Assembly: GCA_903822975.1 (NCBI GenBank)
Contig: CAIJRD010000013.1
Span: forward strand, 1-64,000
Reading direction: 5' to 3'
Length of the DNA: 64,000 nucleotides
Origin: an uncultured Sinobacteraceae bacterium
Lineage (GTDB): Bacteria > Pseudomonadota > Gammaproteobacteria > Nevskiales > Nevskiaceae
Position 1 is the stretch's first letter. Each line of letters starts with the position of its first letter. A program made the translations under genes and the position numbers. Of the stretch, positions 12,924 through 32,812 are shown one piece after another. The notes under the pieces are model-generated. The model saw nothing but the letters and a program-made list of their open reading frames with translations, was not told the DNA's origin and did not search any database.

Positions 12924-13904
12924 ATGCAGTCTTCGATTTCCGATTTTCTCAAGCCGCGCGTCGTCGAAGTAGAACCGGTTTCCGCCAACCGGGCCCGCAT
13001 CACTCTGGAGCCGCTCGAGCGCGGTTTCGGTCATACGCTGGGCAACGCCCTGCGTCGCATTCTGTTGTCGTCGATTCCCGGTGCCGCGCTGACTGAAGCG
13101 CAGATCGAAGGTGTTGTGCATGAGTACAGCGCGATCGAGGGCGTGCAGGAAGACGTCATCGATATCCTGCTGAACGTCAAGAACGTTGCACTGCGCATGA
13201 GCGCGCGCGAAAGCGCCACGCTGAAGATTGAGAAGTCGGGCAAGGGTCCGGTCACGGCCGCCGATATCCAGCTCGATCATGACGTCGAAATCGTCAATCC
13301 TGATCTGGTGATTGCCAACCTCACCGGCGGCAAGCTCAGCATCACGCTGAAAGCAACCCGCGGCCGTGGCTATCAGCCGGCGGTGGTGCGTCAGGCGGGC
13401 GACGAAGAAGGTCGCACGATCGGCTCGTTGCAGCTCGATGCGTCGTACAGCCCGGTTCGTCGCGTCAGCTACAGCGTCGAGCGCGCGCGCGTTGAACAGC
13501 GCACCGATCTCGACAAGCTGATCCTCGACGTCGACACCAACGGCGGCATCGATCCTGCGGAAGCCGTGCGCATGGCCGCACGCATCCTGCGCGATCAGTT
13601 GTCGGTGTTTGTCGACCTCGAAGGCGAAGAAGAAACCGTCAGCGTCGCCGGCAAGCAGGATCTCAACCCGATCCTGTTCCGCCCGATCGACGATCTCGAA
13701 CTCGGTGTGCGTTCGACCAACTGCCTCAAGGCGGAGAACGTCTATTACATCGGCGACCTCGTGCAGCGCAGCGAGACCGAGCTGATGAAGACACCGAACC
13801 TCGGCAAGAAGTCGCTGAACGAGATCAAGGAAGCGCTGAAGACTCACGAACTCGAACTCGGCATGAAGCTGGACAACTGGTCCACGCCGAAAGTCGCTGC
13901 CTAA
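12924..13904 (+). CDS. rpoA: RNA polymerase subunit alpha
   Basis: 326 residues (E. coli 329). The N-terminal assembly domain contains [21 protein letters not shown] linker leads to the C-terminal DNA- and activator-binding domain with [20 protein letters not shown], which retains the Arg and Asn that contact UP-element DNA, and [19 protein letters not shown] 12924 follows AGGTAG. The gene sits between rpsD and rplQ as in other gammaproteobacteria. Confidence 0.98.
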
Positions 13905-13937
13905 GAATTACGTTGTTGAATTGGCGGGAGCCAAACC

Positions 13938-14324
13938 ATGCGTCATAAAGTTGCCGGCCGTCGTCTCGGTCGTACCACCAGCCACCGCAAGGCGGATTTT
14001 CAGAACATGACGGCGTCGCTGATCCAGCACGAGCTGATCCGCACGACCGTGCCGAAGGCCAAGGAGCTGCGCCGTTTCGCCGAGCCGCTCATCACGCGTG
14101 CGAAGAACGACAGCGTCGCCAACCGTCGCCTGACGTTCGATCGCCTGCGCAACCGCGATGCGGTGCAGAAGCTGTTCAATGTGCTCGGCCCGCGTTACCA
14201 GGGTCGTCCCGGCGGCTATCTGCGCATTCTGCGCTGTGGCTTCCGTCCGGGCGACAGTGCACCGATGGCTTATGTGGAACTGGTGGATCGGCCTGAAGCT
14301 GCGACCGCCGCAGCCGCGGAATAG
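13938..14324 (+). CDS. rplQ: 50S ribosomal protein L17
   Basis: 128 residues (E. coli 127). It begins [19 protein letters not shown] and ends with the MAYVELVDR signature plus a short Ala-rich tail. It is the last gene of the ribosomal block; a strong terminator follows 16 bp after the stop. Confidence 0.97.
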
Positions 14325-14390: not shown

Positions 14391-15704
14391 TCACATCTTG
14401 TTGATGCCGCAATCCTGATTGAAATCGCCAATTGCTGCAATCAAGCTACCTATGGCCTGCTGCTCAACTTTGTCGAGGTAGGGATTCCACACATCCGCAA
14501 TCAGAACCGAACGCACGTGTTCGCTCCGATTCCACGCAGCGTGTTCGAAGGTATCGTCGAAGATGACGACTTGGCCTTCCTTCCAGACGTGCATTTCTCC
14601 GCCTACGCTCAGGGCACAGTCTTCTGGAATGACCAATGGCAGATGCACGACAAGACGTGCGTTGGTAACGCCACGGTGCGGTTTGATTTCAGTTCCGGGC
14701 CGCAGCACTGAAAACAGGCTCTCCGGTGCGTGATCCCGGATTCGGGTCAAAGGGAGCGCATCCAGAGCGGCCAACGTTAATGGGCTCTGCGTTCCATGCG
14801 ATTCAAGCAGGATGCCGTGGCGATAGAAGAAATACGTATCCCAGGCTCGTGTTGGCGAGGTGCCTCCAAGGTAGTCGGGAATCCGGTCGGTTGCGATATC
14901 GTGGAATGGATCGAGTTTTTCACCCGATGCCAAGACCGCCGAAAGTTCTGCACGAATGTCCGCCGTTTTAAGTTCAAGCTCCGCGACCCAATCGAATTTC
15001 TGTGGATCGAAATACGGGTGTGTTGGTAGCTCTGGAATATAGAGAAACGACGGGCGCTGCCGATCATCCTGGTAGCTTGGTGCCACGTCCAACAGATACA
15101 TCGAAAGTGCGGCCTCGACCCTAGTAAGCGTGTCTCTCCCGTAAGTGGCTCGAAGTGGCTCGAGGCAGCGGGAGAATAGCTCGCGCCTTCCGGCGACGAC
15201 ATAAGCAGTCGCATGAGCAACCAGTTGGCGTTGCCATGGTGGCGTGGTCTGCAAGTCGCGCCACTGTCCTTTCAATTGCGCAGCGACCAAGGCGCCGAAA
15301 TAGTTGACCAAGGCGCCGTGGCTATTTCCCATCCTCGCCAGCGTGTCGCCCAGCAACAGACGAGCGATGTAGTGATCGGGCGCCAGCTTCAAGGCGTCGC
15401 GAAACTCGATCAAAGCCTCATCCAGCTGGTTGGCCTGCAAATGCACGAGGCCTCGGCTACGTCGCAAAACGCTATCTCCAGGCTTCAGCTGAATTGCCTG
15501 CTCCAACAGCTTCAGTGCATCGGACTTTTGTCCGCGCGCTAGCAACTGCATGGACAGAAAATTCGTTGCCTCCGTCTCGCCTGGAATTCGGTCGAGCACA
15601 GCGCGATAGATCCGTTCGGCTTGCGCGAAATCTCCTTTGTCGAGCAGCGCGCGCGCGCCTTCGAGTTGAGCGAGCGCCGCTTCGCCACCAATGCCCGGAC
15701 TCAC
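14391..15704 (-). CDS. TPR protein with aspartyl/asparaginyl beta-hydroxylase domain
   Basis: 437 residues. The first 150 or so form tetratricopeptide repeats (for example AERIYRAVLDRIPGETEA, LKLLEQAIQLKPGDSVL, ALIEFRDALKLAPDHY). The last 180 form a beta-hydroxylase domain of the AspH type: His343 in IKPHRG, His388 in FEHAAWN and Arg398 are the expected iron and 2-oxoglutarate contacts. Such enzymes hydroxylate Asp or Asn side chains in proteins, peptides or siderophores. The start is GTG at 15704 without a clear ribosome-binding site; no upstream start exists. It faces the TonB receptor divergently. Substrate unknown. No signal peptide, so it is cytoplasmic. Confidence 0.88.
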   Translation of the reverse strand: MSPGIGGEAALAQLEGARALLDKGDFAQAERIYRAVLDRIPGETEATNFLSMQLLARGQKSDALKLLEQAIQLKPGDSVLRRSRGLVHLQANQLDEALIEFRDALKLAPDHYIARLLLGDTLARMGNSHGALVNYFGALVAAQLKGQWRDLQTTPPWQRQLVAHATAYVVAGRRELFSRCLEPLRATYGRDTLTRVEAALSMYLLDVAPSYQDDRQRPSFLYIPELPTHPYFDPQKFDWVAELELKTADIRAELSAVLASGEKLDPFHDIATDRIPDYLGGTSPTRAWDTYFFYRHGILLESHGTQSPLTLAALDALPLTRIRDHAPESLFSVLRPGTEIKPHRGVTNARLVVHLPLVIPEDCALSVGGEMHVWKEGQVVIFDDTFEHAAWNRSEHVRSVLIADVWNPYLDKVEQQAIGSLIAAIGDFNQDCGINKM

Positions 15705-16306
15705 GAGATCGGACTCGTCAGTCGGGGAGAATTAAGAGTGCAGGCTTGGGCTCGTAGGAAATTGGTCATGAGTGATTTTATCGCTAACCCAAGTGTGCGG
15801 AGTTCGACGTCGAGTCAGAAATCACGACGCCTGAACCGGTGCTTGCAGGTCAGCCGAAATCGAATAGCGACTCGAACCTGAAACGTTTGCCACGAGGCAT
15901 CCGTTGCCGACGAAGACTTACCAATACTTCGGAGTCAAATGCCCCGCGACTTTGAAAAGGCTTCAGGCTTCATCGACGGTCTGCAATCGATTTATGACCA
16001 GCTCGGAAGGTTGGCTCGGAAGTTGCCGATCACATCGACATTGAGGCTCTGCGCTGAAAGCACTGATAGACACCAAAGAAACGGCACAACGGCAATCGCC
16101 GGAGATCGCTTAACGTCTATAAACGAAGCAAGATTGCTCGATTTGTGAAGGACATAGACGCCATATTTAAAAAAGATTGAACTTTTCCGACTGGTGCTTG
16201 ACGCTGCTTTCAACTAGGGCTTATTCTCGAAAGCGTCACGTCCAAGATGCAGCAAGTAATAGTGCACTTGGTCGTCTACCAACTTTAGTTTTAGGGAGAT
16301 TTTCGA
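15705..16306. other. Divergent intergenic region before the TonB receptor gene
   Basis: 602 bp without a convincing gene. Base composition is more AT-rich than the neighbours. It contains an inverted repeat, CGTCTAT at 16114-16120 and ATAGACG at 16154-16160, and AT-rich promoter-like stretches near 16143-16170. It must hold the promoters of both divergent genes; none is strong enough to assign. Confidence 0.5.
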
Positions 16307-19252
16307 ATGAAATTGAGTGTCGAAGGACAACTTCGGCGGGCCGTGTGGGGGCTGTGCGCTGTTGGTTCAGTAGGCGCCGCGATCAGCTCACCAGCCGCTC
16401 TTGCGCAGCAAAGTGGTGATGCGACTCAGCTGAAGGGTGTTGAAGTTACCGGAAGCCGCATCCGTCGTGTGGATACGGAAACGTCCAATCTGGTGCAGAC
16501 ACTCGATCGCAAGCAGATCGAAGCAACCGGTGCGACGACGCTCGGAGAACTGATCCAAGCCATTCCTTCGGTTACTGGTGCGCCGCTGTCCGCAACGGCC
16601 AACAATAACGGCGGTTCGATCACCGGTGGTGGTGGCAGTTACGGTGGCGGTGGTTCGGTCGACATTCGTGGTTTGGGTCCCAAGCGCACGCTCTTGCTGC
16701 TCGACGGCCAGCGCTTGAACAACAACGATCCTGATGCCATTCCGGCCAACATGATCGAGCGCATCGAAGTGTTGAAAGAGGGTGCCGGTTCAACTTACGG
16801 CACCGACGCCATCGGCGGCGTCGTCAACTTCATTTCGCGCAAAAACTTCAGTGGTCTCGAGGCCGTGGGACAGTTCGGAAAGACCCAGCGCAACGACGGT
16901 CAGACGACCGGTGCGAGCATCACCTGGGGCTCGAGCGGCGCGAAGTACAAGGCCGTATTCGGCCTTAACTACAACGACCAGCGCGAGATTCGTGCAACGT
17001 CGCGCTACGCAACCGCGAATCCTGCGGGCCTCGCCTATGGCGCAATTACCAATGGCGCCTTCTCGTCGAGTCGGGCACCTGGCGGGCGATTTACCCTCCC
17101 CGGCACGTCGCCTACCGCAATTGCTTTGGATTGCAATGGAAAGCACGATGGCTCGGCCGCAAGCGTCACGCTGAAAGCCGGAGCAACCGGAACTTCTCCG
17201 TCTGACTACCGCTGCTTCGTCAACAACTTTGGAGCAGGCGGTGATCGCTTCAATTACCAGCCTTATAACCTCGATCTCGATCCGTCGCGCCGCGAGTCTC
17301 TGTTCGGCACCGGCTCGTACAAGTTCAACGACTCGGTCAGCTGGTACGGACAAGGTTTCTTCGCCCACACGCAATCGACCCGCAAGTTGGCGCCGGAACC
17401 CTTCGATATTTCGACAATTGCCGGTATCTTCCCGACACTTGGCGCGCCCGTCATTTCCAAGGACAACATTTACAACCCGTTCGGCGTAGACATCACGTCT
17501 TACGCAAAGCGGTCTGTGGATGCCGGCGCGCGAGAGCTCGATTACAACGTCGATCAGTGGCAGGCAACGACGGGTCTCAAAGGCGTGCTGTTCGATCGCT
17601 TCCAGTGGGATCTGGCTTACAACTATGGCCGTCTCGACCTGTCGAATCCGAACCGGGGCTACCTCGACTTTTCAAAAGTCTTCCAGCAGCTCGGCCCTTC
17701 GTTTATCGACGCCCAAGGCGTTGCGACCTGCGGCACCGTTGCCAACCCGATTCTGAATTGCACGCCGGTCAACATATTCGGGACGACCGGCAACACGCTC
17801 GCCGGACTCTCGACGGTCGTCAATGACGTCACGGTGCAGGATGAACAGGATTTCACGTTCAATGTGAGTGGTGACCTGTTCAATCTTCCGGCAGGAGCAG
17901 TTGGTGTAGCGGCAGGTGCTGAATACCGTTCGCTACATTTGGATTCGATTGCCGATGGATTGCAGCAGGAGTATCAGCTATCGGAGGCCAACTTCAAGGA
18001 GACCAGCGGCGGCTATAACGTTCGCGAGGCCTACGCTGAAGCCGAAATTCCGCTGGTCAAGGATCTGCCGGGCGTTAAGAGCTTCATGCTGAATGTCGGC
18101 GTGCGTTACTCGGACTTTTCGAGCTTCGGTAGCAATGTCGCGGGCAAGTATGCATTCGAGTACCGCCCGATCGATGATCTGATGTTGCGCGCGACCTATT
18201 CGGACACCTTCCGTGCGCCGACGACTGGCGAGCTTTTCGGTGGTGCTACGCAGTCGGCTCCCGCGTACACAGACCCCTGCCTCGATTCGAGCGGCGTGGC
18301 GACAGCAGGTACGATTGCCGGGCACAACAAGGCCTGTAACGGTGTGGCGATCGGTTCCACCCAGCCAAACACCCAGGGCAATGGAAACGCCATCGGCAAC
18401 CCCAATCTGAAACCGGAAAAGGGTTATTCCACAGACTTTGGCTTGGTCTTAAATCCTTCAATCTACAAACCGCTCACCATTACGCTGGACTACTATCATT
18501 ACACGTTGAAACAGGCGATCAGCAGCATCTCGCTTAATGAAGTATTGAATGCGTGCTACGCAAGCGATAGCTCTGCCTATTGCGGAACTGCGCCGGACGG
18601 TACGCCGTACTTTACTCGCGTCAACGACAGCAGCAACCCAGCTGCGCCGACGACTTCGATCGCCAACGCTACGCTGCCGTCGCTCAACAGCTTCTCCCTG
18701 TATCAGAATGGCTGGGATGGTGAGGTCAAGCTCGACTATCGCAATGTTCGAGTTGCAGGGAACGATATCGGCAACTTCGACTTCGGGGTCAACCTGACGT
18801 ACATCAATAAGTTCGAAGTCAAGGTATTCGATCCTGCGTCAGGAGAACTGGTTGACGACGCGTCGGTTGCGGGAACCTATGATTTCGCAGATACGGGAGT
18901 CGTTGCACCGCGCTTCAAGGGCTTGGGTTTCTTGTTCTGGTCGCTGGGTCCGGTCTCGGTGTCGGTTGAGGACCGGTACATCGGTAACCTCAAGATGAAT
19001 CACGACGACCTCTCAGCGCCTCCTTCGCCGACTGCTGGCGCACCGTACAACTCCGGTTATGCCAACTACGTCGATCTGGCCGGTACGTACACTGTGAAGC
19101 CGATTAATACCTCGTTCACCGTAGGTATCAACGATCTGTTTGACGATGGCATCCAAAGAACCTTCGACTCGACCAGCGCCGGCGCACCGAATCCGGTGTA
19201 CGACGTTCGCGGCCGGAATTTCTACGGCAAGGTGACTGTCCGCTTCAAGTAA
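16307..19252 (+). CDS. TonB-dependent outer-membrane receptor
   Basis: 981 residues. A signal peptide ends near SSPAALAQQ (residue 35). The plug domain follows with VEVTGSRIRR, TTLGELIQAIPS, VDIRGLGPKRTLLLLDGQR, MIERIEVLKEGAGSTYGTDA and IGGVVNF, all standard for this class. A 22-strand barrel fills the rest, with RATYSDTFRAPTTGELF and PNLKPEKGYSTDFGL. TonB energy drives uptake of a large ligand through such receptors. The final residues are VTVRFK, so the usual terminal aromatic residue is followed by a lysine. AGGGAG at 16293-16298 marks the start. A strong terminator follows. The ligand cannot be read from sequence; nearby hydroxylases and sulfotransferases hint at a modified peptide or metabolite. 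Confidence 0.95.
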   Translation: MKLSVEGQLRRAVWGLCAVGSVGAAISSPAALAQQSGDATQLKGVEVTGSRIRRVDTETSNLVQTLDRKQIEATGATTLGELIQAIPSVTGAPLSATANNNGGSITGGGGSYGGGGSVDIRGLGPKRTLLLLDGQRLNNNDPDAIPANMIERIEVLKEGAGSTYGTDAIGGVVNFISRKNFSGLEAVGQFGKTQRNDGQTTGASITWGSSGAKYKAVFGLNYNDQREIRATSRYATANPAGLAYGAITNGAFSSSRAPGGRFTLPGTSPTAIALDCNGKHDGSAASVTLKAGATGTSPSDYRCFVNNFGAGGDRFNYQPYNLDLDPSRRESLFGTGSYKFNDSVSWYGQGFFAHTQSTRKLAPEPFDISTIAGIFPTLGAPVISKDNIYNPFGVDITSYAKRSVDAGARELDYNVDQWQATTGLKGVLFDRFQWDLAYNYGRLDLSNPNRGYLDFSKVFQQLGPSFIDAQGVATCGTVANPILNCTPVNIFGTTGNTLAGLSTVVNDVTVQDEQDFTFNVSGDLFNLPAGAVGVAAGAEYRSLHLDSIADGLQQEYQLSEANFKETSGGYNVREAYAEAEIPLVKDLPGVKSFMLNVGVRYSDFSSFGSNVAGKYAFEYRPIDDLMLRATYSDTFRAPTTGELFGGATQSAPAYTDPCLDSSGVATAGTIAGHNKACNGVAIGSTQPNTQGNGNAIGNPNLKPEKGYSTDFGLVLNPSIYKPLTITLDYYHYTLKQAISSISLNEVLNACYASDSSAYCGTAPDGTPYFTRVNDSSNPAAPTTSIANATLPSLNSFSLYQNGWDGEVKLDYRNVRVAGNDIGNFDFGVNLTYINKFEVKVFDPASGELVDDASVAGTYDFADTGVVAPRFKGLGFLFWSLGPVSVSVEDRYIGNLKMNHDDLSAPPSPTAGAPYNSGYANYVDLAGTYTVKPINTSFTVGINDLFDDGIQRTFDSTSAGAPNPVYDVRGRNFYGKVTVRFK

Positions 19253-19288
19253 GGCTGCAAGCCGGGCCCGTTAAACGGGTGCGGAATC

Positions 19289-19327
19289 GGGGCCTTCGTG
19301 CAAACTGCACGAAGGCCCCTTTTTTTT
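19289..19327 (+). terminator. Strong intrinsic terminator after the TonB receptor gene
   Basis: GGGGCCTTCGTGC (19289-19301) pairs perfectly with GCACGAAGGCCCC (19307-19319) around a five-base loop, followed by eight T. It separates the receptor from the next gene, whose start lies just 20 bp further on, so the next gene depends on leaky read-through or a promoter inside the receptor gene. Confidence 0.9.
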
Positions 19328-19346
19328 GATCAATGCGAGCAGATGT

Positions 19347-21200
19347 ATGGATGCGATTCCCGATGAGGGCCGTGCCCGCCAGCTTCTGTTGGCCGGTGAA
19401 TTTGACCTGCTCGCGCCTTTCGCAGCGCAGTTGATCAACAACGCTGATGGCGTTGACGAGGGCGTAGTCGAGTGCATCGCACTGGCCTGCGCATCAATGG
19501 GGGACCTCGAGAAAGCGGTTCCGTTGTTCGCTGAACTGATGCGACGCAGCCCCATGAGTGCTTCACATCAGATCAATCTCGCGGTACTGCGTTTGCGCAT
19601 GAGCGACTATCGCGCGGCGCGCGACCTGCTGGTGAGCGTGCGGCCACACACGCCGCACAATGCTGCTCTCGAATTCAATCTTGCCTTGGCGCATTTCGCG
19701 CTCGGCGAATTCTCCGAGGCGACTTCGATACTCTCGGACTATGTCCAAAATGTGCCGGACGATGCGGTCGCAGTGGTCTACCTGGCGCGCTGTTTGATCG
19801 AGCTCGGCGACATCGAATCTGCCGAGCTACTGATGCGTGATTGTTCATTTGACGCGGTGGTCGAAGCGCGCGACCGCTTTGAACTGAGCCAGGTGTATAT
19901 CGCAATCGGGGAGGCGGAACGGGCGCAGCCGATCCTCGAAGAGATTTTGTGCGATGACCACGGCGACGTTGCCGCGCGATTAAGTCTGGCTTCGTTGTTC
20001 GAGCGTTCAAATAAGATCGAGGACGCGCGCGCTCAGATCAATCAAATACCGATAGCCGAACGCGATCGACCGCAGTGGTATGTACTCGACGGCAAACTTG
20101 CGATGGCTGAGAGTCGACCCGCTGTGGCTCTGGCAAGCTTTGAACAAGCTTTGCGTCGAGCGGAGCGCGACGTAGGTTTTGCCGCCGAACGCGCACGCGC
20201 GGAAATCGAATTCGAGCGCGCGCATTGCCTCGACAAGTTGGCTCGGTTTGACGACGCGTTCGAGGGATTTGTCCGTGCCAATCACCTGCTGCGCGAATAC
20301 TTCCGTGTGCAACGTCGGGGAGCGCCGCAACGCGCAATTGCGGGAATCGAGGACTCGACAGAACTCGATGCTGCGGTAGAACGCGCGAGATATTCGAATC
20401 GCTTGGGTGAGTCCCCGATCTTCATTGTCGGATTCCCTCGTTCCGGCACCACCTTGCTTGATCAGCTGCTCGACGCGCATCCCGGATTGCAGGTCATGGA
20501 AGAAAGGCCGGCACTCGACGCGGTAGCCGCCGCCGTCGCCCTGGCAAGCCGACAGCATCTCGATGCGTTGATGACTGCAAACACTGAACAAATCGACAGC
20601 TGGCGCGCGCTTTATTGGCGAGAAGTCGAGCGCTACGTGCGCCGCGTGCCCGGTACGCGCCTGGTCGACAAGTACCCGCTGAATTTGGCGCGGGTCCAAC
20701 TGGCGATGTGCCTATTTCCAGATGCGCAATGGGTCTTCGCGCTACGCCATCCTTGCGACGTTGTACTGAGCTGCTTCATGCAGAGCTTCAGGCCGACCGA
20801 AGCGACTGATGGTTTTTGGTCGCTCGAGCAGACGGCCGGCGTTTACCGCGAAATGATTGCACGCTGGCTGACGCAACGTGAACGTCTGCGTCCGGACTGC
20901 ATTGATGTTCGTTATGAGGATCTGGTTGCGGACCTGCATGGAACTGCGCAGCGGCTGCTCACGTTTCTGCGACTCGAATGGAGTGATTCGGTGCTGCGAT
21001 TCAGCGAGCACGCCAAATCGCGGCGGATCAATACGCCGAGCTACAACCAAGTTGTTCAGCCGATCTACCGACGCGCCGTTGCACGCTGGCATAACTACCG
21101 CGCGTACTTCGGAACTGTCGAAAACATTCTGAAGCCGCTCATCGCGAGCCTGGGCTATGCAACTTCGTCGGAAAACAACGAAACCAGTTCTGGAAAATGA
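19347..21200 (+). CDS. TPR-containing sulfotransferase
   Basis: 617 residues from ATG 19347 (a TTG at 19326 lies inside the terminator and is rejected). Residues 1 to about 330 are helical tetratricopeptide repeats. The sulfotransferase domain follows: the 5'-phosphosulfate-binding loop FIVGFPRSGTTLLDQLL near residue 360-375, VDKYPLNLARVQLAMCLFPD near 440, and the 3'-phosphate-binding FALRHPCDVVLSCF near 460. The domain transfers sulfate from PAPS to a hydroxyl or amine. The TPR half probably binds a protein or peptide. No signal peptide. The 3' end overlaps the convergent gene by 46 bp. Substrate unknown. Confidence 0.9.
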   Translation: MDAIPDEGRARQLLLAGEFDLLAPFAAQLINNADGVDEGVVECIALACASMGDLEKAVPLFAELMRRSPMSASHQINLAVLRLRMSDYRAARDLLVSVRPHTPHNAALEFNLALAHFALGEFSEATSILSDYVQNVPDDAVAVVYLARCLIELGDIESAELLMRDCSFDAVVEARDRFELSQVYIAIGEAERAQPILEEILCDDHGDVAARLSLASLFERSNKIEDARAQINQIPIAERDRPQWYVLDGKLAMAESRPAVALASFEQALRRAERDVGFAAERARAEIEFERAHCLDKLARFDDAFEGFVRANHLLREYFRVQRRGAPQRAIAGIEDSTELDAAVERARYSNRLGESPIFIVGFPRSGTTLLDQLLDAHPGLQVMEERPALDAVAAAVALASRQHLDALMTANTEQIDSWRALYWREVERYVRRVPGTRLVDKYPLNLARVQLAMCLFPDAQWVFALRHPCDVVLSCFMQSFRPTEATDGFWSLEQTAGVYREMIARWLTQRERLRPDCIDVRYEDLVADLHGTAQRLLTFLRLEWSDSVLRFSEHAKSRRINTPSYNQVVQPIYRRAVARWHNYRAYFGTVENILKPLIASLGYATSSENNETSSGK

Positions 21201-22807
21201 TCGGCGTATCTGCGCCAGCGCCCGACCGATCTCGAATAGATCGCCTGTCGCGCCTGCCACGCGCTTGAAGTCGAAATGAAAGATGCGGGCGCCGTGACCG
21301 GCATCGATCGGGCGACCGTGGGCAAACCGAGGAATTCGTTCAGCTTGCCGAGGGTCTGCTCGGGGTTTGCAATCATCTCCTCGTAGCGGAGTTCGAAAAT
21401 CGGCAGATTCAAGCGTCGGCGCCAGTGGGCCATCAATTGGCTACAACCCTCGCTGAACGCCTGAATATCTGCGAACGCGTACGCATAGCCATTGTCGTTT
21501 CCACGCGCAAAATACTGTTGCCAGATCGACAGCGCCGTATCGCGAGCGTTGCGTCGACAGTAGATCACCCGTGCATTGGGGAACAGCTGCGCGATCAGGT
21601 CGAGGTGAAGAAAATTAAGCGGATTCTTATCGAGGTAGAAACTTGCAGGTGCATCGTCCTGACGCAGATGCGCAGCAGCGAACAATGACATGCGCGGAAT
21701 AAGTTGCGCACGCGCCGAAGCCGGTACCTCGGCAAGGCGCTTGCTGATGAATGGAATCAGATTCAGTTCGTCACGATTGCGCAGCTGCGGATGACGACTC
21801 AATCGATCGGCGATCAGCGTTGTACCGCTACGAGGAAGTCCAACGATGAATACCGGAACAAATGCGGCCGTTCCCTCGGATTCCGATTGGCGCGGCTGGA
21901 TCGGTTCTTGGAGTCGTTGCGAGACGTAGCTGCGCCAAGACTCCCGGCGCCATTCGATGCTCGCGCGAACCAGCGAATTGCCTTCGCGGAATGCGGCCGC
22001 GGCCACGTCGAAATCACCGATATCGTCATTCGCCTTGGCGAGCGCGAACAGTCCCGACGCGCGGGCGGACGGAGCCAGATTGGGCCGCGCTAGGAATTCG
22101 CGGAAACGCAAGAGGTCGGGGTGCGCGGCATTGGCATATCGCTGTGCAGCCGACAGAGCGTGAAGCAGGGAGGGCACCGCGTCGTCGTCGGCGCTCGACA
22201 AGGCCTGCAGGTAGTGATTTCTCGCGGCTGCAAAGTCACCGACGCTTGCTGCGAGGCGCCCCGCCAGTCCGTGTAGCGCCGAGTCTCGCTGGTGTTGCGT
22301 CAATGCAGCTTCGCAGAGCAAATAGCCCAATTGCGGTTGCTGGCATTGCTCGACAAAAGTGATTCGCGCCAATAGCAGCTGGGCGTCACCGGGATCGTGC
22401 TCAATCAGGGCGGCCATCATTCGCGATGCTTCGACCAGTCGCCCCTCCGCCTGCAAGAGCAGAGCAAGCGAATGCTGTGCGTTCGAATCTCCTGCTAGCG
22501 CCAGAGGCCCAAGCAGCGTCTCGGCGCGCTGCGGTTGTCCCAAACGCCGGAGCAGATCGCCGAGTGTGAATCGCAGCTCGGCAGCATCCGGCAACTCGAT
22601 CATGCGCGACTCAAGTAATGCGATCGCAGACTCGTGATCGCCGCCTTGCTCCAATGCCGCCGCGATCTGCAGGATTTGCGGTAGCGGTGCGATCGCGAGT
22701 TCACGCCTCAAGGTTCGCATTGCCCTGATGCGTCCGGAGGTCGCCAGGATCGACGCATGCTGAGCCAGCAGTCGCTGCAAATCCCGATCACGGCCGGATT
22801 CAATCAC
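21155..22807 (-). CDS. TPR-containing sulfotransferase
   Basis: 550 residues. TPR-like helices make up the first 300 (for example RLGQPQRAETLLGPLALAG, EASRMMAALIEHDPGDAQ). The sulfotransferase domain has FIVGLPRSGTTLIADRLSRH near residue 315, LDKNPLNFLHLDLIAQLFPN near 395 and VIYCRRNARDTALSIW near 415. It is more similar in layout to the 22962 protein than to the 19347 one. Start is uncertain: GTG 22807 has no ribosome-binding site, while ATG 22720 is preceded by CAGGG. It is convergent with the preceding gene and divergent from the next. Confidence 0.88.
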   Translation of the reverse strand: MIESGRDRDLQRLLAQHASILATSGRIRAMRTLRRELAIAPLPQILQIAAALEQGGDHESAIALLESRMIELPDAAELRFTLGDLLRRLGQPQRAETLLGPLALAGDSNAQHSLALLLQAEGRLVEASRMMAALIEHDPGDAQLLLARITFVEQCQQPQLGYLLCEAALTQHQRDSALHGLAGRLAASVGDFAAARNHYLQALSSADDDAVPSLLHALSAAQRYANAAHPDLLRFREFLARPNLAPSARASGLFALAKANDDIGDFDVAAAAFREGNSLVRASIEWRRESWRSYVSQRLQEPIQPRQSESEGTAAFVPVFIVGLPRSGTTLIADRLSRHPQLRNRDELNLIPFISKRLAEVPASARAQLIPRMSLFAAAHLRQDDAPASFYLDKNPLNFLHLDLIAQLFPNARVIYCRRNARDTALSIWQQYFARGNDNGYAYAFADIQAFSEGCSQLMAHWRRRLNLPIFELRYEEMIANPEQTLGKLNEFLGLPTVARSMPVTAPASFISTSSAWQARQAIYSRSVGRWRRYADHFPELVSLFSDEVA

Positions 22808-22961
22808 GGGGGCGATACGCCACGATGGAGCGGAAAGAGAAGGAAGTCATGATGACGGAAAATGCTAACACGCAGCGCGCCTGTTTCCGGGTGGCGCAGG
22901 TTTGGAGGCGTGTAGTCCAGCGGGCGCCCCACGCACGAGGCAGCTGCCACTATCATCGGCT

Positions 22962-24605
22962 ATGGACAGCGTAGATACGAAAACGGCGCAGCCCGCGCGG
23001 CTGATTGCAGACTTGATGGGTGATGCTGCGCGCATGGGTGAACCTGCCGCACTCGCCAAACTGCAACAACGATTGCAGGGTACCCCGTCGACGTTTTGGG
23101 TCGCGGTGGCCGAGGCCTTGCTGGGGCGGGAGCTCCCGGTTGCCGCAATTCACCTGATGGACGCCGCTCGGCGCGCGTTCCCAGACGACATGGAGGTGCT
23201 GTTTACGTTCGGCGCGGCCTTGCGTTTGGCCGGTGATGGAGCGACGGCGGAGCAGGTGCTCACGCACGTAATGTCGCGGATGCCGGAGCACGACCGGGCC
23301 TGCCTGACGTTGGCGCTATTGCACCGGGATCGTGGTCAGAACAGTGCGGCCGCGCAGCTGCTCCGCGACTTGCATAAACGGCGGGGCGGGGCGGATCTGA
23401 CCCTGTATGTCGTCGACCTGCTGCGCAAATGCAGACGCGAACGCGATGCGATGGCGATTTGCGAGGCGGAACTGCAGCGCGCGCCGGAACACGCGCGACT
23501 GCAGTTCGTCGCGGGCGGGCTCGCGCTGACGCTCGGTCGATTTGAAGATGCGCGGCGCTGGTTGCTGGCGGCATTGGACCGCAGTGAACCCGAATGGGGG
23601 GCGCTGATGCCGTTGGCACTGACTCGTAAGTATCTCGATCAATCCGATCCTGATCTGACTCGCTTTCGCCAAGCAGCAGCGTCGCCGGCGCTGTCACCTG
23701 AGTTGCGCAGTGCGGCCGGGTTCGCGCTGGGCAAGGCGCTCGACGATCTGGGTGATTTTGCGGGTGCTGCTTCCGCCTTGACTGAAGCCAACCGACACCA
23801 GCACTCGCTCGCGAACTGGTCGGCGTCAAATTGGGATGCGTTCATCGCGCGGCAGATCGAATCGCCGCCACCGCTATTTCTTGATGAAGCAGTGGACAAC
23901 GCCATCGTGCCGATTTTTGTCGTCGGCCTACCCCGCAGCGGCACAACCTTGGTCGCTGAATTGCTTGCGCGCCACCCGGAAGCTGTGAGCCGTGGCGAAT
24001 TGCCGTGGCTTAGCTTCGTCGTGAATAGCCTTATGTCATCGCCTGCGCCGGACGTTACGGCGATGCGTCGCGCTGCCGCGCTTTACCTGGCACAGCTGCG
24101 TCAAGACGACCCGGCTGTTCGCTGGTACGTCGACAAGAATCCGATGAATTTTCGCTTCCTGGGCTGGATCATTGCGCTATTTCCGAACGCGCGAATCCTG
24201 GTGTGCGATCGCGATCGGCGCGACACCGCCCTATCGATCTGGAGCCAGGCCTTCGACTCCGTCGAACTGGGTTTCGCGTACGACTTTGCCGATATCGAGC
24301 GATGCATTGCAGGACACGATGTGCTGTTGAAGCACTGGTTGCCGCGCTTGGGTGCCTCGGTATACCGGGTCGACTATGAACGCCTTGCGCGTTCACCGCA
24401 GAACGTCGTGGCCGAGATTCAGACCTTCATTGGGATGCCGCCCAGCAATCTGCTTGACGCAACGGGGGCAAGCAAGACGACTGTGAACACGGCGAGCGTC
24501 TGGCAGGTTCGTCAGCCGATCTACAGTAGCTCCATTGGGCGTGCGGAGGTTTACTCGGCGTTGCTTCCAGAACTTTTGCGATTTCCCTCGAGGCCACGAA
24601 CGTGA
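22962..24605 (+). CDS. TPR-containing sulfotransferase
   Basis: 547 residues from ATG 22962 (a TTG at 22902 gives a poorer N-terminus). TPR-like repeats fill the first 300 residues. The sulfotransferase part has IFVVGLPRSGTTLVAELLAR near residue 316, VDKNPMNFRFLGWIIALFPN near 390 and ILVCDRDRRDTALSIWSQ near 405. The end, ASVWQVRQPIYSSSIGRAEVY, matches a region in the 21155-22807 protein (AWQARQAIYSRSVGRWRRY), so the two are probably paralogues. It reads towards the fused gene 56 bp downstream and is likely co-transcribed with it. Confidence 0.9.
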   Translation: MDSVDTKTAQPARLIADLMGDAARMGEPAALAKLQQRLQGTPSTFWVAVAEALLGRELPVAAIHLMDAARRAFPDDMEVLFTFGAALRLAGDGATAEQVLTHVMSRMPEHDRACLTLALLHRDRGQNSAAAQLLRDLHKRRGGADLTLYVVDLLRKCRRERDAMAICEAELQRAPEHARLQFVAGGLALTLGRFEDARRWLLAALDRSEPEWGALMPLALTRKYLDQSDPDLTRFRQAAASPALSPELRSAAGFALGKALDDLGDFAGAASALTEANRHQHSLANWSASNWDAFIARQIESPPPLFLDEAVDNAIVPIFVVGLPRSGTTLVAELLARHPEAVSRGELPWLSFVVNSLMSSPAPDVTAMRRAAALYLAQLRQDDPAVRWYVDKNPMNFRFLGWIIALFPNARILVCDRDRRDTALSIWSQAFDSVELGFAYDFADIERCIAGHDVLLKHWLPRLGASVYRVDYERLARSPQNVVAEIQTFIGMPPSNLLDATGASKTTVNTASVWQVRQPIYSSSIGRAEVYSALLPELLRFPSRPRT

Positions 24606-24660
24606 TCGAGTTTTCACCGAATGGCTGGTGCAGACAGCTCGTCGCCGAGCGAGGCAGGCA

Positions 24661-26562
24661 ATGAAACTTCCTGCTCCGTTTTTTCGATTGCCATTGGTGG
24701 TTGATGTCGCGCGCTTGCAAGCGGAACTCGAGCTGTACTCAGCCGAGGATTGGCAGCGGCATCCAACCGGATTTGCAGGCAACAGCGCCGTACGGCTGAT
24801 TAGCGTCAATGGTGGACCGACGGATGATTTCGTCGGCTCGATGGCCCCGACGCCTCAGCTTCAGCGTGCGCCTTACATCCGACAAATCCTCGCATCGTTT
24901 GGAGTTGTCTGGAGTCGTTCACGATTGATGCGCCTTGCTGCTGGCGCGAGCGTACCGGAACACTGCGATCTCAACTATCACTGGTTCAATCGAGTCCGCG
25001 TTCACATTCCCGTTCGCACCGACCCTGCCGTGTCCTTTACCTGTGACGGGCAAACGGTTCACATGGCGGCCGGAGAAGTGTGGCTATTCGACAATTGGCG
25101 CTTGCACCATGTCCATAACGGTAGTGCGTTCGATCGGGTTCACCTCGTGGCCGACACGATGGGCAGCGCCGCATTCTGGAACCTGCTTGCCGATAGCGAT
25201 ACGAAGGATTTCGCTCGGCGCCGTGTCTCACCACAGGAAATCGCGTTCCAGCCCGGTACCGATGCGAAAATATGGTGCGAACGCTACAATAACAGCAGCA
25301 CCATGCATCCTGCTGAGCTCGACCTATTGACCGGTGATCTGCTCAATGATCTGCGCGATCTTCCGGATGTAAGGGGACGACAGGCGCTACACGCGTTCGC
25401 TGGCTTCGTCGTGCATATGTGTCGTGAGTGGCGCATGTTGTGGTCGTTGTTTGGAGACTCCGCAGAGGGCTGGCCACATTTTCGCAATTTGCGGGACTGG
25501 GCGATCGATCAAAACAATCAGCAATCGGCGGCGGTCGTCTGCGCCAGTAACGGAATGAGTGCCAGTGAGGTTCTGTACTCGCGCGTGCTCGCTTATTGCT
25601 GGTGTGCGCCTACGCACGCCGAGGTGCTGCAAGATGTTGACCGCACGCTCAGTTCGGGAGGCATGACCGCTGATGTCGGCAATGCCTCGCATGTCGCGAG
25701 TTCGATCGCGACGTTCGAGCGCCCCGTGTTTATCGTGGCGGCGCCGAGGTCCGGGAGCACTTTGTTGTTCGAAACACTGGCGCAAGCGCCAGATCTATGG
25801 ACGGTGGGCGGTGAGTCCCACTGGCTGGTCGAAACGCTCCCGCAGTTGCTGCCATGGGCAGATGGGGTCGGCTCCAATCGCTTGACGGCCGCGCACGTCG
25901 ATGAAGCGGTGCGTGAGCATGTGCGGGGATTGCTTGCCGAAAACCTGCGAGATCGGGATGGCCTGCCGTATCGCAGCGGTTCGGTTCGCATACTCGAGAA
26001 GACGCCGAAGCATGCGCTGCGAATTCCGTTCTTCAGCACGCTTTTTCCAGACGCACGGTTCATCTTCTTATGGCGCGAGCCGCAGCCAAATTTGGCGAGC
26101 ATGATCGAGGCCTGGCTGTCGCAGGGATGGATCACCTACCCACAGCTACCCGGGCGGGGGACGCCGTGGTCGCTCCTGCTGCCGCCGGGCTGGGAAGCGA
26201 TGCATGACAAGAGCGTCGCAGAAACGGTCGCGTTCCAGTGGCGGACGACCAACGAACTGGTTCTCGATGATCTCGCAGCGCTGCCCGATGAACGTTGGAC
26301 GATGCTGCGGTACGAGGACTTCGTCGCGGATCCTGCGGGCACGGTGCGACGACTCTGTCGCTTTGCGGATTTCGGGTTTGATCAGCAGCTGGCCGATCGC
26401 GTCAATGCGCCCTTGCCACTCTCGGTGCATACGCTGGACAAGCCGGCCCCGATGAAGTGGAAGAAGCACGAGCGCACGATTCTCGATTTGCAGTCCCAGT
26501 GGCAGTCCACGCGTGATCGTCTGCACCAGGCGAACCTGCGCAAACAGCAACAGAATCGCTGA
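24661..26562 (+). CDS. Fusion of AspH-like hydroxylase and sulfotransferase
   Basis: 633 residues from ATG 24661, after AGGCAGG. Residues 1 to about 200 resemble the aspartyl/asparaginyl beta-hydroxylase fold: VPEHCDLNYHWFNRVRVHIP near 97-117 gives an H-x-D type site and VWLFDNWRLHHVHNGSAFDR near 140-160 the second histidine, with Arg following. Residues from about 355 form a sulfotransferase: VFIVAAPRSGSTLLFETLAQ and ILEKTPKHALRIPFF then FIFLWREPQPNLASM. The middle part is unassigned. The fusion joins two activities that also occur as separate genes in this island, which strongly suggests hydroxylation and sulfation act on the same substrate. No signal peptide. Confidence 0.85.
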   Translation: MKLPAPFFRLPLVVDVARLQAELELYSAEDWQRHPTGFAGNSAVRLISVNGGPTDDFVGSMAPTPQLQRAPYIRQILASFGVVWSRSRLMRLAAGASVPEHCDLNYHWFNRVRVHIPVRTDPAVSFTCDGQTVHMAAGEVWLFDNWRLHHVHNGSAFDRVHLVADTMGSAAFWNLLADSDTKDFARRRVSPQEIAFQPGTDAKIWCERYNNSSTMHPAELDLLTGDLLNDLRDLPDVRGRQALHAFAGFVVHMCREWRMLWSLFGDSAEGWPHFRNLRDWAIDQNNQQSAAVVCASNGMSASEVLYSRVLAYCWCAPTHAEVLQDVDRTLSSGGMTADVGNASHVASSIATFERPVFIVAAPRSGSTLLFETLAQAPDLWTVGGESHWLVETLPQLLPWADGVGSNRLTAAHVDEAVREHVRGLLAENLRDRDGLPYRSGSVRILEKTPKHALRIPFFSTLFPDARFIFLWREPQPNLASMIEAWLSQGWITYPQLPGRGTPWSLLLPPGWEAMHDKSVAETVAFQWRTTNELVLDDLAALPDERWTMLRYEDFVADPAGTVRRLCRFADFGFDQQLADRVNAPLPLSVHTLDKPAPMKWKKHERTILDLQSQWQSTRDRLHQANLRKQQQNR

Positions 26563-26634
26563 TCGCGGCGAACTACCCAAACGCTATTGCGTGCTTCAAG
26601 CGGTGTTGCTACCTTCGTCGCATAAGGTTCTGAA

Positions 26635-26681
26635 TCCGAATTCGGAACGAAAAATCAATAATCGGAATTACCAATTCCGAT
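26635..26681 (+). promoter_or_regulatory. Paired palindromes upstream of the DUF1302 gene
   Basis: TCCGAATTCGGA (26635-26646) is a perfect 12-bp palindrome. ATCGGAATT (26661-26669) and AATTCCGAT (26673-26681) form a second with 3 bp between arms. Both share the word CGGAATT. Two related dyads 15 bp apart, ending only 18 bp before the start codon, look like a repressor operator pair. Confidence 0.6.
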
Positions 26682-26699
26682 GCGAGGGAGGAGCAGGGA

Positions 26700-29342
26700 A
26701 TGGGGACGTATGCGCGCGTCGAGTCTTTCTGGAGTGCGGCTGTCGTCGCACTGGTTTTGGCACTCACATGCTTGCGTGCATCTGCTCTTGACTTCGAGAT
26801 CCCTACTTTCGGATTCGGCGATCAGCCGATTGCCGGCGTTCTGAATACAACGTTGACCGCTGGTGGCGGTCTGCGCACGCAAGGTCAGAGCGTCAACCTG
26901 ATCGGCAAATCCAATCTCAACCCGGGCGTTTGTGGCGGGCCCAACGGGGCCTATCAGTCCTGTCAGGGTTTGTTCAAGAATCAAAGCTATCCGGCTGCCG
27001 TGCTGGCGGCCGCGCCGGGGGCTGCGTCGATCAATGGTGACGATGGCGATTTGAATTACGGCAAGGGCTCGCTGTTCCAGGCGGTGGCGAAGGTCACGTC
27101 GGACGTCACCTTGACCTACGGCAACTTCGGCTTTTTTGCGCGCTCGTTGTACTTCTACGATTTCGTCAACAACGACAAGATCGAGCGGCATCCGAACTTG
27201 ATCACGCAGTCCAATTACCTGCAGGTCGGGCGTCATCTGCCGACGCTGGCAGGGGGCGTGCTGGGTGGGTTGTCGCCGGGCCAGATCGTCGGATGTCTGA
27301 CCAATCCCGGCGCCAACATCCTGTGCCCCGCCAGCGGCGTGATTCAAGGTGCGTTACTGAACAATCGCCCCTACGGTCGGCCCGACGGCAACGGCAAACT
27401 GGTCGTTTACGGGCCCGGCGGTGCGGTGCGTCAGCGGCGTACGGATCCTGAGGTGCTGCGTCAGTCCGGCACCAATCTGCAGTATCTCGACACCTACGTG
27501 TACGGCAAACTTCCGATTCCGTTTGTCGATGGCAAGGAGCTGACCTTCAAGGTCGGGCGCCAATTGGTGAACTGGGGCGAAAGCACCACGATCGTATTGA
27601 ACAGTATCAATCAGGCGAACCCGGTCAACGCCAACAACTTTTATCGCGTCGGCAGCCAGGTCGAGGAAGACTTCACCCCCATCAATATGGTGGACCTGAG
27701 TTTCTCGCCATTCGAGAACGGCACGGTCGAGGGCTTCTATCAGCTCGAGTGGCAGGCGGTGGAAGCACCCGCGCCGGGGACCTATTTCTCGGATGTCGAC
27801 GTCGGCACCAACAACGCCGGCAAGCCGATCAATGTCAGCGCAAGCTTTGGCGGCGCGGCTGAAGATCCGAATGGCCTGGGCACGCCGCTGGACAATCCGC
27901 TGGCGGGCATCACGCCCACATCCACAGTGATTCCGCGCCTCAGCGACCGCGAGCCGCGCACCAGCGGTCAGTACGGAATCAAGCTCGACTACTATGCCGA
28001 CTGGCTCAATGGCGGCACCGACGTAAGCCTGTACTACATGAATTACCACTCGCGCCTGCCGCTCGCGAGTTTCTATTCGACGTATCCCAGCTGCGCGCGC
28101 CGCGAGGGTAATTCGCGCGGCGATGACGCCACGAATACGGTTGGCTTCCTGCTCGATTGCCCCAATATTCCCTTGGTCAAGGGCCTGCTAGGGCCCAATG
28201 CGCTGACCGGCCCGGGCACCAGCAGTGCCGTCGAATTCGACAGTGCACGGTTTCAGCTCGAGTATCCGGAAGACATTCACCTGATCGGCGCGAGCTTCAA
28301 CACCACCGTCGGCGAATACTCGCTGCAAGGCGAAGTCGCCTATCGGCCGAACGAACCCTTGCAGGTCGATCCGCAGGATCTCGCCTTCGCCGCATTTGGT
28401 CCTACGCTTTCGCGCTGTTCTCAGCCCACCGCGAACTGCGTCGGCTCCACCGCCGGCGTTGGCTTCAACCAGACCGGCGGCACTCAGACCTACGGCACCA
28501 GCAACTTCACACCGAAGAGCGGGCAGGTTGGTTATCCCGATACCTTCGATCTGGTGATCGGCGCACTGCCGGGTTCGGCGCGCTCCTTCCCGAACTTCGT
28601 GATTCCGTATCGCGGCGGCACCGTCGGCGAGAACACGCCGTGCTATCCGAAACCGGGCACGCCGGAAGACGTGGCTGCGGGCTTGAGCGGCTTCAGCCAT
28701 CCCTACTATCCGTACAACCCGAGCAGCCCCTGCTACATCCGCGGTTACGAGCGCATGCAGGTGTTCCAGTTCAACGTCGGAGCCACGCGCGTCCTCGGCT
28801 CAACCGACAATCCGATCGGTGCGTCGCAGGTGATCCTGCTGTTCGAAGCCGGTGCGACCTACGTGCCCTTCCTGCCGCCGCTCGACAAACTGGTTCTGGA
28901 AGGCCCGAACACCAACTACGGCCCGACCGCTGGCGCCGACGGTTCTGGTGCCAATGGTTCACGCATGGCGTGCTCAAATATTCCGGACTGCTCGATCGGT
29001 CCCGATGGTCTGCGCTTCAACCCGCACCAGCAGGATCCCACCGGATACCCCGATTCGTTCTCGTGGGGATATCGACTGATCTCGATCATCAAGTACGAAA
29101 GCGTACTGCCAGGCCTGAGCATTTCACCGTTCATCGTCTACAAGCAGGACGTGCAGGGCACCGCACCGAGTCCGGCGCCGAACTTTGTCGCGGGCCGCAA
29201 GGAAGCGGACGTGCTCACCGAATTCCGCTACAAAGGTTCGATGTCTCTGAACCTCGGATACACCTGGTACTGGGGCGGCGGAACGTTTAACACGCTGTCC
29301 GATCGCGACTACGCGCAGGCCTTCGTGAAGTATCAGTTCTAA
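26700..29342 (+). CDS. DUF1302-type outer-membrane protein
   Basis: 880 residues. The N-terminus has a hydrophobic signal ending near LRASA (residue 30), then DFEIPTFGFGDQPI and NTTLTAGGGLRTQGQ, followed by SINGDDGDLNYGKGSLFQAV, the usual start of DUF1302 proteins. The rest is beta-rich with many Gly/Asn/Tyr turns, and it ends in YAQAFVKYQF with a terminal Phe, typical of outer-membrane barrels. A good GGGAGGAGC site lies just before ATG 26700. DUF1302 genes often sit beside DUF1329 genes in hydrophobic-compound clusters; no DUF1329 partner is present here. Role unknown, probably passage of a hydrophobic substrate. Confidence 0.85.
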   Translation: MGTYARVESFWSAAVVALVLALTCLRASALDFEIPTFGFGDQPIAGVLNTTLTAGGGLRTQGQSVNLIGKSNLNPGVCGGPNGAYQSCQGLFKNQSYPAAVLAAAPGAASINGDDGDLNYGKGSLFQAVAKVTSDVTLTYGNFGFFARSLYFYDFVNNDKIERHPNLITQSNYLQVGRHLPTLAGGVLGGLSPGQIVGCLTNPGANILCPASGVIQGALLNNRPYGRPDGNGKLVVYGPGGAVRQRRTDPEVLRQSGTNLQYLDTYVYGKLPIPFVDGKELTFKVGRQLVNWGESTTIVLNSINQANPVNANNFYRVGSQVEEDFTPINMVDLSFSPFENGTVEGFYQLEWQAVEAPAPGTYFSDVDVGTNNAGKPINVSASFGGAAEDPNGLGTPLDNPLAGITPTSTVIPRLSDREPRTSGQYGIKLDYYADWLNGGTDVSLYYMNYHSRLPLASFYSTYPSCARREGNSRGDDATNTVGFLLDCPNIPLVKGLLGPNALTGPGTSSAVEFDSARFQLEYPEDIHLIGASFNTTVGEYSLQGEVAYRPNEPLQVDPQDLAFAAFGPTLSRCSQPTANCVGSTAGVGFNQTGGTQTYGTSNFTPKSGQVGYPDTFDLVIGALPGSARSFPNFVIPYRGGTVGENTPCYPKPGTPEDVAAGLSGFSHPYYPYNPSSPCYIRGYERMQVFQFNVGATRVLGSTDNPIGASQVILLFEAGATYVPFLPPLDKLVLEGPNTNYGPTAGADGSGANGSRMACSNIPDCSIGPDGLRFNPHQQDPTGYPDSFSWGYRLISIIKYESVLPGLSISPFIVYKQDVQGTAPSPAPNFVAGRKEADVLTEFRYKGSMSLNLGYTWYWGGGTFNTLSDRDYAQAFVKYQF

Positions 29343-29450: not shown

Positions 29451-29537
29451 CGTTGAAATAAGCCTGAAGGGCGTGCTGTCTTGCTCGGTGCCTTCGCGCT
29501 TGCCGCTTCCCGGTAGTTCAATCGAGGTCTCAAATCA

Positions 29538-30146
29538 ATGAGCAATGAAGGCGTGGACGACGGCCGCCGCCGTTTCCTTACCGCCGCCACTTCGGTCGTG
29601 GGCGCCGCTGGCGCTGCCGCCGTGGTCTGGCCTTTCCTGGCGTCGCTGAAACCCAGCGCCAAAGCGCAAGCAGCCGGTGCACCGGTTCAAGCCGACATCA
29701 GCAAGATCGAAGAAGGCCAGCAGGTCACCTTCGTCTGGCGCGGCAGCAATATCTGGGTACTGCGTCGCTCGAAGGACATGATTGCTTCGCTGTCGCAGGT
29801 CACCGCCCAGCTCAGCGATCCGAAGTGCGAACAGGATCAGCAGCCGGCGTACTGCAAGAACGAGACGCGCTCGATCAAGCCGGAATTCCTGGTGATGAAC
29901 GGCAAGTGCACCCATCTGGGCTGCTCGCCGAGCTTCAAGCCGGATCATCCGGCGCCGGAAATCGACGCCAACTGGCTCGGCGGCTACTTCTGCCCCTGCC
30001 ACGGCTCCAAGTACGATCTCGCCGGCCGCGTGTTCAACGGCATGCCTGCGCCACTCAACATGGTGGTTCCGCCGCACCGTTACGTGTCCGACACCGTCGT
30101 CGTCATCGGCGAAGATCCGACCGACGCGAAGAAGGAGGCTGCGTAA
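29538..30146 (+). CDS. petA: Ubiquinol-cytochrome c reductase, Rieske iron-sulfur subunit
   Basis: 202 residues. RRRFL followed by a hydrophobic stretch is a Tat-type signal anchor. The 2Fe-2S site is complete: Cys124-His126 in CTHLGC and Cys152-His155 in CPCHGS, with Cys129 and Cys154 for the disulfide. The subunit takes an electron from ubiquinol in complex III and passes it to cytochrome c1 on the periplasmic side. The stop overlaps the start of petB (TAATG). Confidence 0.97.
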   Translation: MSNEGVDDGRRRFLTAATSVVGAAGAAAVVWPFLASLKPSAKAQAAGAPVQADISKIEEGQQVTFVWRGSNIWVLRRSKDMIASLSQVTAQLSDPKCEQDQQPAYCKNETRSIKPEFLVMNGKCTHLGCSPSFKPDHPAPEIDANWLGGYFCPCHGSKYDLAGRVFNGMPAPLNMVVPPHRYVSDTVVVIGEDPTDAKKEAA

Positions 30147-32133: not shown

Positions 32134-32149
32134 AGCCATGAAATAAGCC

Positions 32150-32812
32150 ATGGCCCTGCGTAGCCGTCTCGCTCCCGACAAGGTCCCGGTCAAACCCGCG
32201 CTGAATGCCGGCTTGACCCTGTTTGTCTCGAACGAGTCCCTCGGCTGCGACTGGGCCCGGCTGGTCCTTTCGGAAAAGGAAATTGACGGCTCCAAGATCG
32301 AACAGATCGGTGCCGGCCGCGTCAACGAGGATTTCCTCGTACTGAACCCGACGCAGAGTCTGCCGACGCTGGTCGATCGCGAAGGCGTGTTGCCTTACGC
32401 GCGCGTGATTGTCGAATACCTGGAGGAGCGCTACCCGCATCCGCCACTGATGCCACAGGAGCCCGCATTGCGAGCGCGTGCGCGCGTGGCCTTGCAGCAG
32501 ATCGAGCTCGATCTGTTCGCAGCCAGCGACGTCTTGCTGAAGGGCAGTGGTCGCAGCCTGGAAGCCGCCAAACGCACCCTGCTCGACGGCGTGCGATCCG
32601 GCGGGCGCCGCGTCGCGGGCAGCGGCTACATGCTCGGTCGCGAATACACATTGGCGGACTGTGCCTGGGCGGTGTTGCTGCGTCGGTTTGTGCTGCACGG
32701 CGGGCTGCCAAGCACCGAGCTCGCGCCGTGGCGTGGCTATGCACAGCGCGTTTTTTCGCGGCGCGCGTTCCGAGCCTGCTTTGGCGATCTGACTGCGAAG
32801 CCGCAGAAATGA
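32150..32812 (+). CDS. sspA: Stringent starvation protein A
   Basis: 220 residues with a glutathione-transferase fold: thioredoxin-like N-terminus (LTLFVSNESLGCDWARLVL, LNPTQSLPTLVDREGVL) and a helical C-terminal half. SspA homologues lack transferase activity and bind RNA polymerase to alter transcription in stationary phase and acid stress. Location between petC and sspB is the standard gammaproteobacterial order. The stop overlaps sspB. Confidence 0.93.
   Translation: MALRSRLAPDKVPVKPALNAGLTLFVSNESLGCDWARLVLSEKEIDGSKIEQIGAGRVNEDFLVLNPTQSLPTLVDREGVLPYARVIVEYLEERYPHPPLMPQEPALRARARVALQQIELDLFAASDVLLKGSGRSLEAAKRTLLDGVRSGGRRVAGSGYMLGREYTLADCAWAVLLRRFVLHGGLPSTELAPWRGYAQRVFSRRAFRACFGDLTAKPQK

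Follow-up and report, generated by a model that had tools for sequence, protein, structure and literature searches.

What does a Nevskia-like gammaproteobacterium do with a run of hydroxylase and sulfotransferase (ST) genes set beside the gene for a TonB-dependent receptor? Such an island lies between rplQ and the pet genes in the window analysed here, a stretch of 64,000 nucleotides (G000:C13:1-64000) from a 4.46-Mb genome whose nearest named relatives are Nevskia metagenome-assembled genomes (MAGs; L044-L046). An initial annotation had described in it two domains of the aspartate/asparagine beta-hydroxylase (AspH) type, four sulfotransferase domains, a TonB receptor and a DUF1302 outer-membrane protein, with tetratricopeptide repeats (TPR) on three of the sulfotransferases and one hydroxylase. 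Pfam agrees on all of these, with one refinement: a single bifunctional protein, AspH-ST, accounts for both the second AspH and the fourth sulfotransferase domain. We show that the TonB receptor and the enzymes form a real, co-inherited unit, and then ask what its substrate might be.

Recurrence of the cassette

An AspH-ST alignment was scanned against 84,980 species genomes, giving 80 loci whose neighbours were clustered and searched with profiles; the loci were picked by AspH-ST motifs, some genera occur more than once, and the labels type A and type B are those of this analysis. At least two further core families accompany AspH-ST at 49 of 76 loci; a single one is present at two loci, and the 25 loci without any are for the most part from Brevundimonas, from distant phyla or on short contigs. 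Most of the 49 linked loci, which come from gamma-, beta- and alphaproteobacteria, keep a fixed gene order with gaps near 0 bp. Type A, the gamma type, found in Nevskiaceae, Steroidobacteraceae, Rubrivivax and related MAGs, has the order TonB > TPR-ST < 2-oxoglutarate (2OG) oxygenase > TPR-AspH > AspH-ST < small ST < AspH. Type B, the alpha type, found in Sphingomonas, Caulobacter, Asticcacaulis, Phenylobacterium and a member of the Rhizobiales, has the order TonB > Sulfotransfer_2 > AspH > TPR-ST > AspH or AspH-ST. In some genomes (G048, L038/L039; L096) the oxygenase and the sulfotransferase are encoded by two adjacent genes instead of one. Distances between type A genes correlate from gene to gene (r 0.72-0.89, Mantel tests with no species-tree control), which shows co-inheritance and not co-function.

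TPR-AspH served as an independent anchor, with six carriers among 143 gammaproteobacterial genomes. A TonB receptor and a TPR-sulfotransferase lie nearby in all four of the new carriers with enough flanking sequence, which represent four families; a random 20-kb stretch would hold a TonB barrel in about 7% of cases (17 barrels in 4.46 Mb). The window's genome has, besides those 17 barrels, only four AspH and six Sulfotransfer_3 domains, and this scarcity, together with the recurrence in other genera and families, argues that the grouping is not due to chance. The expectation in the initial annotation that these gene types would be co-conserved in relatives, rather than prove unlinked there, is thus borne out. 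Purifying selection acts on the island genes: between the window and its nearest relative, the ratio of nonsynonymous to synonymous substitution rates (dN/dS) is about 0.07-0.19, and for two genes with saturated dS the proportion of nonsynonymous differences (pN) is far below that of synonymous ones (pS). No description of the cassette was found in the open-licence papers searched.

In Nevskia sp. RYN_595, the closest relative, there is a second cassette (L034, G021:C2), which has diverged and includes a 2OG oxygenase and a small sulfotransferase. The window's own genome carries elsewhere the pair of Sulfotransfer_2 and AspH genes that is seen in the alphaproteobacterial cassette, with no TonB gene (L040 7649-8957; G000:C11 about 415648-416956). 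Brevundimonas and relatives (L047, L049, L052, L055-L057, L087, L111) have a solitary AspH-ST among housekeeping genes (rnr-like, NUDIX, rpmG).

The hydroxylases and sulfotransferases

Genes in the window were called by a codon-based method, and their starts are predictions. TPR-AspH (14391..15704, reverse strand) matches Asp_Arg_Hydrox (E 6e-42), with the TPR repeats N-terminal to the PF05118 oxygenase, and matches human AspH in the PDB (E 1.6e-26). Human AspH holds its iron with His679 and His725 (PMC6817910). In all 39 TPR-AspH homologues the acidic iron-ligand position is likewise Gly (HxG) and both His residues are invariant; the bacterial protein has both the domain order and the two-His HxG..H site of the human type. 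The catalytic domain of its AlphaFold 2 (AF2) model (predicted local distance difference test score, pLDDT, 93.6) superposes on 5apa with Z 23.5 and a root mean square deviation of 2.1 Å over 190 residues at 31% identity; TPR and oxygenase together align with human AspH only at a large overall deviation, which does not support a common domain placement. Unlike human AspH, which acts on epidermal growth factor (EGF)-like domains, TPR-AspH lacks a membrane anchor and an endoplasmic reticulum signal, and its gene adjoins that of a TonB receptor. Assignment as an LpxO or OlsC lipid hydroxylase was rejected, the scores being 65.3 against 500 bits and 109.9 against 450 bits, respectively, at the NCBIfam equivalog cut-offs.

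Three TPR-sulfotransferases follow the receptor gene: number 1 at 19347..21200 (forward), number 2, convergent with it, at 21155..22807 (reverse), and number 3 at 22902..24605 (forward), with Sulfotransfer_3 matches of E 1e-37, 3e-37 and 1e-29 and, for numbers 2 and 3, orthologues in L029. The open reading frame (ORF) of number 1 was listed from 19326; its start is probably the ATG at 19347, which lies 3' of a hairpin described below. By sequence, the solved relatives nearest to this protein are protein-tyrosine sulfotransferases (E 1.4e-17). AspH-ST (24661..26562, forward, with a conserved start near 24661 and not at 24535) fuses Asp_Arg_Hydrox (E 1e-14) to Sulfotransfer_3 (E 1.5e-26). In its AF2 model (pLDDT 87.4), residues 3-330, which include a helical extension, resemble L-proline cis-4-hydroxylase (4p7w/4p7x; Z 16.0) and hydroxylases related to it (Z about 16). 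The two share fold and HxD..H motif, at only about 20% identity and with the difference that AspH-ST carries the sulfotransferase fusion. Residues 351-625 are closest to the human tyrosylprotein sulfotransferases TPST1 and TPST2 (TPST1 Z 18.4). These residues share the fold of the human enzymes, and both they and TPR-sulfotransferase 1 keep the PRSGTT loop, the Glu, and the K-x-P and R..S motifs. The TPST-like fold was compared for AspH-ST, and the other sulfotransferase domains were assessed by motifs: all four contain the PRSG(T/S)T 5'-phosphosulfate binding (5'-PSB) loop, the Arg..Ser of the 3'-phosphate binding (3'-PB) site and a Glu at the TPST base position. Unlike TPST1 and TPST2, the window's domains are fused to TPR repeats or an oxygenase and would be cytosolic, and that they sulfate tyrosine is a prediction.

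Alignments show that AspH-ST retains HxD..H and the loops for 3'-phosphoadenosine 5'-phosphosulfate (PAPS), and by their active-site motifs the cassette enzymes look catalytically intact. None has an export signal by hydropathy, and they are predicted to be cytosolic. Three strong matches to adenosine 5'-phosphosulfate (APS) kinase make a source of PAPS in this genome plausible. Given the intact motifs, and the fact that the solved relatives closest to the TPR enzymes (human AspH and the TPSTs) act on proteins, the initial proposal that a protein or peptide is hydroxylated and perhaps sulfated appears reasonable.

The receptor, its upstream region and the flanking genes

The TonB-dependent receptor (16307..19252, forward) has a signal peptide as well as a plug and a beta-barrel, both recognized as domains. 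It is 84.5% identical to its counterpart in L029, and a homologue is adjacent to the enzymes across cassettes. Aligned with L029, the divergent intergenic region between TPR-AspH and the receptor (15705..16306) has a conserved promoter-like part directly 5' of the TonB gene. No conserved short ORF or precursor peptide was found in this 600-bp gap on comparison of the window with L029, and the near-zero gaps elsewhere mean that no precursor gene fits inside the cassette; the initial reading of the gaps had come to the same result. Between the receptor gene and TPR-sulfotransferase 1, a hairpin with a T run (19289..19327, forward), read from the sequence, resembles an intrinsic terminator and suggests that transcription of the receptor gene may exceed that of the enzyme genes.

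Upstream of the gamma-type TonB gene there is no excess of Pho boxes (4.79 mismatches versus 4.96 in shuffled sequence), and phosphate control of the window's cassette was rejected on that ground. The alpha-type TonB gene does show an excess (4.05 versus 5.01). Type B cassettes have CTGTCAC Pho-box-like sites 5' of the TonB gene, and they adjoin genes for a phosphocholine-specific phospholipase C and 2-aminoethylphosphonate degradation (L094, L097, L102-L104, L113-L119, L122, L123).

The island is bounded upstream by rpoA and rplQ (12924..14324, forward; rplQ at 13938-14324), assigned by Pfam and synteny, and downstream, by synteny, by petA-petB-petC and an sspA-like gene (29472..32812, forward). 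In most Nevskiaceae examined OppABCF occupies this interval, frequently accompanied by one DUF1302 gene or two, and frequently also by a TonB > TPR-AspH pair. In L125 and L143 the interval contains Opp and DUF1302 but no gene for any of the enzymes; Opp, an ancestral occupant of the site, and DUF1302 are therefore to be regarded as resident neighbours. The initial annotation had paired the receptor with the DUF1302 barrel as the outer-membrane partners of the enzymes; the receptor does belong to the unit, whereas the DUF1302 protein (26700..29342, forward, next to petABC; E 2e-158) was rejected as a member, being present where the enzymes are absent and missing from most cassettes. The genome has seventeen DUF1302 matches in all. 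Opp was likewise rejected as an obligatory part for the window, whose genome contains no SBP_bac_5 protein and has lost Opp entirely. Outside this interval, Opp also adjoins the cassette in G036 (L036) and in a Comamonadaceae MAG (L083), a hint that the two are functionally linked, and the match of OppA to oligopeptide-binding proteins is genuine (E 3e-130). The cassette of Hydrocarboniphaga adds DUF3450, ExbB, ExbD and TonB genes (L135), with a matching order in L032 judged from gene sizes, and in Steroidobacteraceae an exported retropepsin-like protease directly precedes the TonB gene. In several Nevskiaceae an exported two-cysteine protein of 180-210 amino acids sits between TPR-AspH and OppA (L126 12466-13098, L129 12927-13499, L127 6221-6766); the L126 copy has no Pfam match.

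Distant AspH-ST proteins

In Planctomycetota, Verrucomicrobia, Actinobacteria and Contendobacter the fusion is extended to AspH-ST-TIGR03032 (DUF4915). A secreted beta-helix protein adjoins it in seven of the seven loci with room for a neighbour (L073 7318-9858, L077 2-9587, L078 425-2122, L080 11209-12996, L082 1940-4183, L085 2043-4205, L086 2744-4546), and the protein in L073 also carries Calx-beta and bacterial immunoglobulin (Ig) domains. These beta-helix proteins are candidate substrates; they point to a protein as the substrate and support a surface protein in that role.

What does the cassette modify?

The cassette has the look of a hitherto undescribed system for modifying a peptide or protein. 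We favour, with somewhat less than an even chance of being right, a co-inherited cassette whose enzymes hydroxylate and sulfate, in the cytosol, a peptide or protein that its TonB receptor handles, with an imported peptide more likely to be the substrate than the receptor itself. A ligand resembling a peptide would pass the outer membrane through the receptor, and the Opp ABC transporter, which lies beside the cassette in most relatives, would move it inward. In the cytosol, TPR modules may grip the polypeptide and TPR-AspH would beta-hydroxylate Asp or Asn; the oxygenase half of AspH-ST, whose nearest solved relative hydroxylates proline, could add a second hydroxylation, and the TPST-like domains would sulfate Tyr or the new hydroxyls using PAPS. 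We infer the polypeptide nature of the substrate, the direction of import, the order of the reactions and their purpose, which might be to convert or inactivate an imported peptide. The import context derives from Opp beside the cassette, the ExbB, ExbD and TonB genes and the retropepsin-like protease. Several observations count against this reading: AspH-ST occurs in Brevundimonas with no TonB gene nearby; Opp is not essential, since it occurs at the rplQ-pet site without the enzymes and no SBP_bac_5 protein is encoded in the window's genome; free proline is the substrate of the enzyme that, among solved structures, comes closest to the AspH-ST oxygenase; and the distant AspH-ST proteins have surface proteins, not TonB receptors, as neighbours.

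That last point leads to an exported surface protein from a neighbouring gene as the substrate; in this genome it would be the TonB receptor itself, modified in the cytosol before Sec export. The receptor is the only near-constant non-enzyme gene in proteobacterial cassettes, and the secreted beta-helix, Calx-beta or Ig-type neighbours in seven of seven loci fit such a role, but a receptor that keeps plug and barrel looks like a working transporter, some relatives have in addition a peptide importer or genes of their own for energising TonB, and many bacterial TonB receptors occur without such enzymes; we consider this unlikely. Rather unlikely, too, is a small-molecule pathway in which an amino acid, lipid or imported metabolite is hydroxylated and sulfated, the receptor importing the metabolite or retaking the product. 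It would suit the kinship of the AspH-ST oxygenase to L-proline cis-4-hydroxylase, the action of other AspH-family members on lipids (the LpxO and OlsC matches are weak), and the phospholipase C and 2-aminoethylphosphonate genes and Pho-box-like sites of alphaproteobacterial cassettes. Set against it are features of protein modifiers, namely TPR repeats on four of the five window enzymes, the two-His AspH signature and the TPST-like domains, and LpxO and OlsC scores far under their cut-offs.

A secreted sulfated peptide signal or a ribosomally synthesized and post-translationally modified peptide, with its precursor encoded elsewhere and the receptor acting as a sensor or re-uptake port, would be reminiscent of methanobactin. 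Methanobactin clusters combine MbnS, a sulfotransferase that modifies the precursor, with the MbnT TonB receptor. The cassette likewise pairs sulfotransferase with TonB receptor, but it has no precursor peptide and is dominated by AspH-type hydroxylases. In the RaxX-RaxST-RaxAB sulfated peptide system of Xanthomonas, RaxST sulfates RaxX (PMC6637879). There, too, a bacterial sulfotransferase of the tyrosine type belongs to a gene cluster, but the cassette has a TonB receptor and several hydroxylases instead of a precursor and an exporter. The precursor gene that marks a Rax-type cluster is absent from 15705-16306 and from the near-zero gaps, and with neither an exporter nor a conserved short ORF in the cassette we regard a secreted product as improbable. 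Chance gathering of unrelated genes at an integration hot-spot after rplQ has almost nothing left to recommend it: the site does house Opp and DUF1302 in relatives, and for DUF1302 the explanation holds, but it is refuted for the receptor and the enzymes, whose families also occur together in other classes and at numerous further sites.

A broader form of the favoured cytosolic modification is possible, although we would place it well under an even chance: the TonB-linked cassette would be a cytosolic counterpart of animal secretory-pathway AspH and TPST, beta-hydroxylating and O-sulfating polypeptides that TPR or TIGR03032 modules select, and the same fused enzyme would modify surface beta-helix proteins in other phyla. 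To our knowledge, protein sulfation has been described in only a handful of bacterial systems, and we know of no established bacterial substrate for the human AspH type of Asp/Asn beta-hydroxylation. Because the cassette occurs in culturable genera (Caulobacter, Sphingomonas, Asticcacaulis, Steroidobacter), both modifications are testable, and the oxygenase-sulfotransferase fusion offers a direct handle, in that a single purified protein would be expected to carry out both reactions on one substrate. Should the substrate enter through the TonB receptor, the cassette would represent an unrecognised bacterial route for processing imported peptides; if the receptor is itself the substrate, outer-membrane proteins would bear modifications that have gone undetected.

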